Origin: an uncultured Shimia sp. | GTDB lineage: Bacteria > Pseudomonadota > Alphaproteobacteria > Rhodobacterales > Rhodobacteraceae | Direction: 5' to 3' | DNA length: 64,000 bases | Assembly (NCBI GenBank): GCA_937897325.1 | Contig: CALCOY010000051.1 | Span: 1 to 64,000, forward strand | Shown: positions 22,189 through 27,053 of the stretch, piece after piece | Position numbering within the stretch: position 1 is the first letter of the stretch | Layout: every line of letters starts with the position of its first letter | Notes under the pieces: generated by a model | The model's database searches: none | What the model saw: the letters and a program-made list of their open reading frames with translations, nothing else | Told to the model about the DNA's origin: nothing | Position numbers and translations under genes: made by a program

Positions 22189-22356
22189 CATCCAGTCAAA
22201 AAAAGCGCCGCACATCCGAGGGGATGGCGGCGCAGGAAGGCGTTTCTCGTGAGGGACCAGACGCTACCAGATCAGAGCGGGCTGACCTGCCTTAGGCAAA
22301 TGCACATTAAAGGGACATAAGTGCATGTAACGACTGCACGAGATCGCAGGCAGAAC

Positions 22357-22485
22357 TCAGACCAGAACAGGAAGATGAAGGCCAACGACAAGCATGACGG
22401 TCAGCGCCGCCAGCCCGATGGCATCTTGAAACAACGTGGCATCAGAGCGGTTCGTGATCTGCTTAATCTGGTGAAGAGCGGTCAT
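22357..22485 (-). CDS. 42-residue single-pass membrane protein under a LexA box
   Basis: This short gene starts with ATG at 22485, preceded by AAGGAG at six bases spacing. It encodes a polar N-terminus (MTALHQIKQITNRSDATLFQ) followed by one hydrophobic helix (residues 20-42, about DAIGLAALTVMLVVGLHL, then PVLV). A perfect LexA box lies 58 bases upstream, directly before a TACAAT -10 element. I recognise no named family. Size, single helix and SOS control resemble the Caulobacter division inhibitor SidA and TisB-type toxins, but there is no sequence proof. It lies downstream of recG on the same strand with its own promoter. Confidence 0.68.
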   Translation of the reverse strand: MTALHQIKQITNRSDATLFQDAIGLAALTVMLVVGLHLPVLV

Positions 22486-22513
22486 GTCAGTCTCCTTAGC
22501 CTTAAGTTGCCAC

Positions 22514-22561
22514 TTTGTTCTCATATCGTTAGGGGATTGTAAAGAACTTTATGAGAACAAA
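22514..22561. repeat. Perfect 12-bp inverted repeat around SOS promoter
   Basis: TTTGTTCTCATA (22514-22525) and TATGAGAACAAA (22550-22561) are exact inverse copies separated by 24 bases. The right arm contributes half of the LexA box; the left arm begins a near-match (GTTC-N7-GTTA at 22517-22531) on the other strand. Confidence 0.85.
22544..22558 (-). promoter_or_regulatory. LexA (SOS) box upstream of the 42-residue membrane protein
   Basis: GAAC-TTTATGA-GAAC on the plus strand, i.e. GTTC-N7-GTTC on the coding strand, exactly matches the alphaproteobacterial LexA consensus. It abuts the -10-like TACAAT (plus-strand positions 22536-22541), so LexA binding would block RNA polymerase. Confidence 0.8.
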
Positions 22562-22577
22562 TGTGAACTTTTATAGT

Positions 22578-27053
<4,476 letters not shown>

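Follow-up and report, generated by a model that had tools for sequence, protein, structure and literature searches.

The window analysed here, a stretch of 64,000 nucleotides from an uncultured Shimia sp., carries on its minus strand a short open reading frame (22357..22485) that runs from an ATG at 22485 to a stop at 22357 and encodes a peptide of 42 residues. The initial annotation had proposed this previously unlisted frame as a gene, and our analysis of its translation, homologues and substitution ratios showed that it is real (pN/pS 0.13 over 149 close pairs). The good Shine-Dalgarno sequence also described there was seen as AAGGAG at 22492..22497 (minus strand), ending 6 nt ahead of the ATG. 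Upstream and codirectional with the peptide gene are recG (22578..24665, minus strand), identified by its Pfam RecG domains and with its stop 92 bp from the peptide frame, and ligA for NAD-dependent DNA ligase (24662..26782, minus strand), which overlaps the recG start. Since these two genes are codirectional and the downstream gene is convergent, the promoter described below most plausibly serves the peptide frame alone. A GC-rich stem with seven T at 22198..22233 (minus strand), recognised from the sequence and RNA folding, is a likely intrinsic terminator common to the peptide gene and its convergent neighbour, and the transcript could end near 22198; the consensus scan did not flag a terminator at this position.

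Between recG and the peptide gene is an exact GTTC-N7-GTTC LexA box, present as first annotated (box 1, GTTCTCATAAAGTTC, 22544..22558, minus strand), with a third GTTC half-site 6 bp further upstream at 22565..22568 (minus strand), also as claimed and just beyond the end of the segment first annotated. A -35 hexamer TTTACA (22538..22543, minus strand) abuts box 1 and is followed by a facing LexA box with one changed base (box 2, GAACAAAGTGGCAAC, 22506..22520, minus strand) that covers the presumed -10. The facing operators make an inverted repeat, computed at 22514..22561, with arms of 17 nt (22514-22530 and 22545-22561) that match at 88% and include 12 nt of perfect match. The 12-bp perfect inverted repeat noted earlier is thus real, and it belongs with two facing LexA operators placed around the -35 and over the presumed -10.

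Selection on the encoded protein was evident from 149 pairs of coding sequences that were 80-99% identical, where pN/pS was 0.127, the ratio was below 1 in every pair for which it was defined, and differences by codon position numbered 522/184/1814. A tblastn search with the 42 residues gave matches in 32 of 61 same-family genomes at E up to 10, with 23 of the 61 below E 0.01 (the window's own genome counted), and identity to the window copy ranged from 26 to 68% among 37 relatives. The family profile, built from 17 tblastn relatives, matched 263 of 295 genomes at E up to 0.1, these being an even sample of the window's taxonomic family. In a class-wide sample, 15 of 289 genomes matched at the same threshold, where four belonged to the window's own family (own genome included) with E 1.4e-12 or better and the other 11 had E 0.0065 or worse, mostly within unrelated longer frames. 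Overall, the profile found nothing convincing outside Rhodobacteraceae among these 289 genomes, and a search with one family member at E up to 0.01 found no plasmid copies. The peptide frame is a real gene, and its conservation in relatives, on which the initial annotation had staked its claim, was checked and leaves that claim standing.

Gene neighbourhoods were compared in 153 input loci, reduced to 138 by removing repeats and loci without a profile match, and to 137 members by excluding one non-member (L024); this set joins the best profile matches with the weakest ones and is a non-random choice. A codirectional recG lay no more than 400 bp upstream in 132 of the 137 distinct loci, with 47-312 bp (median 108.5) between the recG stop and the peptide ATG, while the five exceptions comprised four loci without recG in the available stretch and one with recG 620 bp off. 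This adjacency holds down to members of 18.7 bits, which are too weak to secure by sequence alone. A second set of loci from titled public genome records, including Ruegeria, Sulfitobacter, Phaeobacter, Tritonibacter, Rhodovulum and others with some metagenome assemblies, had recG upstream in 80 of 80 cases; this set, the top 80 of 198 matches in one search, is biased to close relatives and shares 14 loci with the first. An extension of the gene to other families of the class by position was rejected, since no LexA box was found within 400 bp of recG in any of 26 readable loci (recG was present in 29 of 30 genomes searched, and three of its loci could not be read). LexA sites have been predicted for recG in some alphaproteobacteria, in a set that takes in Rhodobacter sphaeroides and Paracoccus denitrificans (PMC3323433), and our guess is that some of the sites assigned to recG there correspond to the box described here.

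The promoter arrangement was conserved along with the gene. An exact GTTCN7GTTC was found upstream in 130 of 137 loci, so that the earlier claim also stands where it had been tied to conservation of the box in relatives; box 1 was present in 79 of 80 public-record loci and in 195 of 203 loci when both sets were pooled and repeats removed. The additional GTTCN6GTTC spacing occurred in 106 of 137 loci, and the remaining spacings up to 15 were seen in 0-7 loci each. The hexamer following box 1 was counted in 209 of 217 box-bearing loci (14 of the 217 being in both sets) and read TTTACA in 132, TTTACC/T/G in 50, TTGACN in 10 and otherwise in 17. These counts identify a -35 (TTTACA/TTGACN) abutting the box, and the initial reading of TACAAT as a -10 was therefore wrong and is rejected. 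GAACA followed exactly 17 bp past the -35 in 184 of the 209 loci; in the window the -10 region reads GAACAA, and a sigma-70 scan gave no promoter match here. The box-anchored alignment of 208 loci read tttGTTC.CaAATGTTCTcAaAAAGTTCTTTACa, eleven unconserved bases, then AtaTGAGAACAAAggggCAACAaa, where the two GTTC of box 1 and the following TT were fixed by locus selection and the other conserved columns were free. The 11 bases past the -35 were near random while the operator arrangement was conserved. Box 2 faces box 1 and usually reads GAACN7CAAC, one base away from a LexA box; it was exact (GAACN7GAAC) in 16 of 137 loci, including three of the seven loci without box 1 compared with 13 of the 130 with it (p 0.035); four of the 137 had no exact LexA box in either direction. 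Among 600 pairs with coding DNA 60-70% identical, identity was 80% in the promoter (a figure aided by anchoring on the box), 64% in the coding region and 63% in the leader and 3' DNA, against a shuffled level of 58-60% for the latter; distant pairs were used because very close pairs are alike in all regions and uninformative.

The frequency of the box was rejected as evidence for regulation, as it stood at chance level both in the window (3 GTTCN7GTTC against 2.3 expected) and in the genome (184 against 195 for a reversed control pattern). SOS control of the peptide gene is strongly inferred instead from the conservation of the operators in relatives, which supports the regulation first proposed well. 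A conserved GTTCN7GTTC operator in the promoter is the mark of the alphaproteobacterial LexA regulon, to which the gene would belong by this measure, and on sequence grounds we consider it very probable that the locus encodes a real SOS-controlled membrane peptide. The GTTCN7GTTC operator, on the other strand, was also found ahead of recA in 30 of 30 loci and ahead of 28 of the 29 lexA frames that were parsed (the remaining one was a wrong frame, and a 30th locus was left unparsed). The recA promoters (L136-L165) often showed a GTTC-N7-GATC closely followed by an exact GAACN7GAAC, that is, facing boxes, and double facing operators may be a general trait of SOS promoters in Rhodobacteraceae. 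The lexA promoters of L107, L109, L110, L111, L114, L124 and L127 carried a third in-phase GAAC (GAACN7GAACN7GAAC). lexA has reportedly been studied in R. capsulatus. In Dinoroseobacter, in-silico LexA targets have been named, with predicted sites at dprA, gene-transfer-agent (GTA), pilus and flagellar genes, and the peptide gene is not among the targets named in the relevant section of that report (PMC6473078).

Family genomes seemingly without the peptide were inspected behind recG in 30 cases, comprising 28 of the 32 non-matching genomes and two with weak matches. recG was found in 21, of which 20 had readable loci, and the other nine had no recG match beyond other helicases. An exact LexA box in one or other direction was seen in 12 of the 20 readable loci and a frame of 36-44 residues with a hydrophobic end, judged by eye, in 12 of the 20, with both together in 11; the partial cases were one contig ending inside the promoter and one frame without a full box, and seven of the 20 had neither box nor peptide-like frame. 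LexA (PF01726) was detected in 13 of 13 genomes with a sign of the peptide compared with four of seven without. When the 13 were pooled with 30 other peptide-bearing genomes, LexA was present in 43 of 43 against four of the seven peptide-less genomes that keep recG (p 0.0018), where G008, with weak LexA matches only, was scored as lacking LexA; counting its weak match (5/7) gave p 0.017, and dropping the two partial cases gave p 0.002. This co-occurrence of peptide and LexA is supportive in strength, since several assemblies are incomplete, and four LexA-bearing genomes with recG have no recognisable peptide at that site. Family genomes G219, G191, G029, G033, G083, G146 and G257 gave no LexA match, with recG missing as well in G029, G083, G146 and G257, and may either have lost the SOS response naturally or be incompletely assembled.

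The peptide is predicted to be a single-helix membrane protein with its N-terminus inside and its C-terminus outside. The one hydrophobic segment noted earlier was recovered (Kyte-Doolittle 2.28 over 19 residues), and AlphaFold2 modelled one helix over residues 3-41 (mean pLDDT 81.5, pTM 0.42). Among 190 distinct members with an ATG start, 34-50 residues and no unknown residue, 189 had 19 consecutive residues with a mean hydropathy of at least 1.6, the mean net charge ahead of this segment was +0.69, and none of the 190 had K or R after it; the predicted topology follows from this positive N-terminal part and the lack of K/R after the helix. Numbered as in the 136 members that are 40 residues long, the most constant positions after M1 in those members were D19 (99%), G22 (99%), L34 (99%), P37 (96%), L26 (95%) and L30 (93%), within a conserved DxxGxxxLxxxLxx(G/A)xxxP. 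D19, G22, L26, L30 and P37 share one helix face, and L34 is off this face and equally conserved. The conservation moment at 100 degrees was as high in 18 of 5000 shuffles; this test used unseeded shuffles of a single alignment whose sequences are related. A conserved helix face argues for a specific partner, and action through a protein partner rather than on the bulk membrane is, in our assessment, likely.

Searches of family libraries support the initial view of a membrane peptide outside named families. None of 38 members matched a Pfam family at E up to 0.1, and NCBIfam gave nothing at cut-off, with three weak matches of one member each (E 0.045-0.071), that of the window peptide scoring 13.9 bits where the cut-off is 124. 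Two members searched against PADLOC and PHROGs at E up to 1 gave no family, no PDB sequence matched the peptide, and a limited literature search by titles and the opening of abstracts returned no such gene. By sequence comparison, this would be a membrane peptide family without an existing name. An RNA gene or structured leader was rejected, as Rfam gave no match at the locus, the RNA fold scored z -1.4 and was equalled by 11 of 100 shuffles, and the leader and 3' DNA were near shuffled level.

Several known SOS-induced proteins can be compared with the peptide. SidA of Caulobacter crescentus is described as an SOS-induced inner-membrane protein of 29 residues, likewise tiny and alphaproteobacterial, and the LexA motif given for C. 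crescentus is GTTCN7GTTC, as at the peptide gene. SidA interacts with FtsW and FtsN by experiment, whereas the peptide is known here from sequence and is likened to SidA by description only, as a small single helix under LexA according to prediction and a conserved operator. Small SOS- or damage-induced membrane inhibitors of FtsW or FtsN are reported from other bacteria (PMC4211646, PMC13396833); YneA, ChiZ and SosA resemble the peptide in being small membrane proteins induced in this way, and the YneA helix is reported to bind TM7 of FtsW (PMC13396833). YneA and ChiZ carry a LysM domain, whereas the peptide has 40-42 residues with a helix nearly to its C-terminus, and no LysM was found in the family (0 Pfam families for 38 members). 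SulA, which would share the proposed role as an SOS division block, is described as acting on FtsZ (PMC4211646); it was found in none of the 61 family genomes searched, and its domain (PF03846) is absent from the peptide, which has no Pfam hit. DinQ and TisB of E. coli are SOS-controlled membrane peptides of 27 and 29 residues (PMC3567139 for DinQ), and the window peptide gave no alignment with either at E up to 100, which bears out the initial impression that it does not match TisB. DinQ and TisB have annotated small RNAs alongside, whereas the peptide locus has no such sign: there was no Rfam match and the leader and 3' DNA were near shuffled level, a check that a fast-evolving antisense RNA could escape.

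Our main reading, to which we give a probability of roughly one half, is that this LexA-repressed inner-membrane peptide may be a SidA-like DNA-damage division checkpoint of Rhodobacteraceae. In undamaged cells, LexA bound at both facing operators, around the -35 and over the presumed -10, would keep the peptide from being made, as the conserved operators suggest. RecA-driven cleavage, established for LexA generally, would free the promoter after damage, and the protein of 40-42 residues would insert with its on-average positive N-terminus inside and its C-terminus outside. The helix face of D19, G22, L26, L30, G/A33 and P37 would then dock on a specific membrane partner, by analogy with SidA most likely the septal wall synthase FtsW/FtsI/FtsN, and hold septation until repair is done. 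That division is the affected process has about even odds by this analogy, and is proposed because SulA is missing (0/61), small inhibitors act elsewhere and a single-site gene in most of the family looks like part of a checkpoint rather than an addictive toxin. Rapid divergence (26-68% identity) is not by itself predicted by a conserved divisome target, and DinQ, an SOS-controlled single-helix peptide reported to have no effect on filamentation (PMC3567139), is a warning against the division reading. Rhodobacteraceae are abundant in the sea and include the laboratory models Rhodobacter, Paracoccus, Ruegeria and Phaeobacter. With no SulA found in the 61 genomes searched, one short gene at a predictable site would offer a handle on how these bacteria arrest division after DNA damage. 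A new family comparable with SidA and YneA may also help to learn in what way a helix alone could block the synthesis of septal wall.

The evidence for SOS control and a specific helix partner would fit equally well a peptide that regulates some other membrane process after damage, such as a membrane protease, DNA uptake, gene-transfer-agent release, respiration or motility. The LexA sites predicted at dprA, GTA, pilus and flagellar genes of Dinoroseobacter (PMC6473078) favour this explanation, but no positional or sequence link to such systems was seen and the constant neighbour is recG, and we regard it as possible though doubtful. An unlikely alternative is a membrane-depolarising SOS toxin of the TisB/DinQ type, which would lower energy metabolism and promote dormancy; SOS control, size and a single helix are as expected of such a toxin, whereas the failure to align with TisB or DinQ, the absence of K/R beyond the helix in all 190 proteins, the conserved helix face, the one fixed site across most of the family and the lack of an antisense-antitoxin sign (no Rfam match; leader and 3' DNA near shuffled level in distant pairs) all speak against it. 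We would hold as speculative, and slightly less probable again, that the peptide is an ancestral SOS effector of the whole Rhodobacteraceae, consisting of a helix only, with a membrane target unlike that of known divisome inhibitors. It would have held its place downstream of recG even as its sequence turned over quickly, with phages or gene-transfer agents that make use of the SOS response perhaps exerting the pressure; a similar helix occurs on a Mu-like element of the same genome. A chance frame, at a LexA site that is itself fortuitous or directs an RNA, with RNA or nothing as the product, is compatible with the chance frequency of the box alone but is contradicted by protein-level selection (pN/pS 0.127), the 263 of 295 matching genomes and operator conservation, and deserves hardly any credence.

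Additionally, a 108-residue protein (L397:6231-6557; G000 contig C21) ended in a helix that matched the peptide profile (E 1.1e-5). Its gene lies near genes for a Mu-like transposase and transposition protein and is itself without a PHROG, and the helix could have arisen by convergence or have been copied by a phage from the SOS helix of its host.
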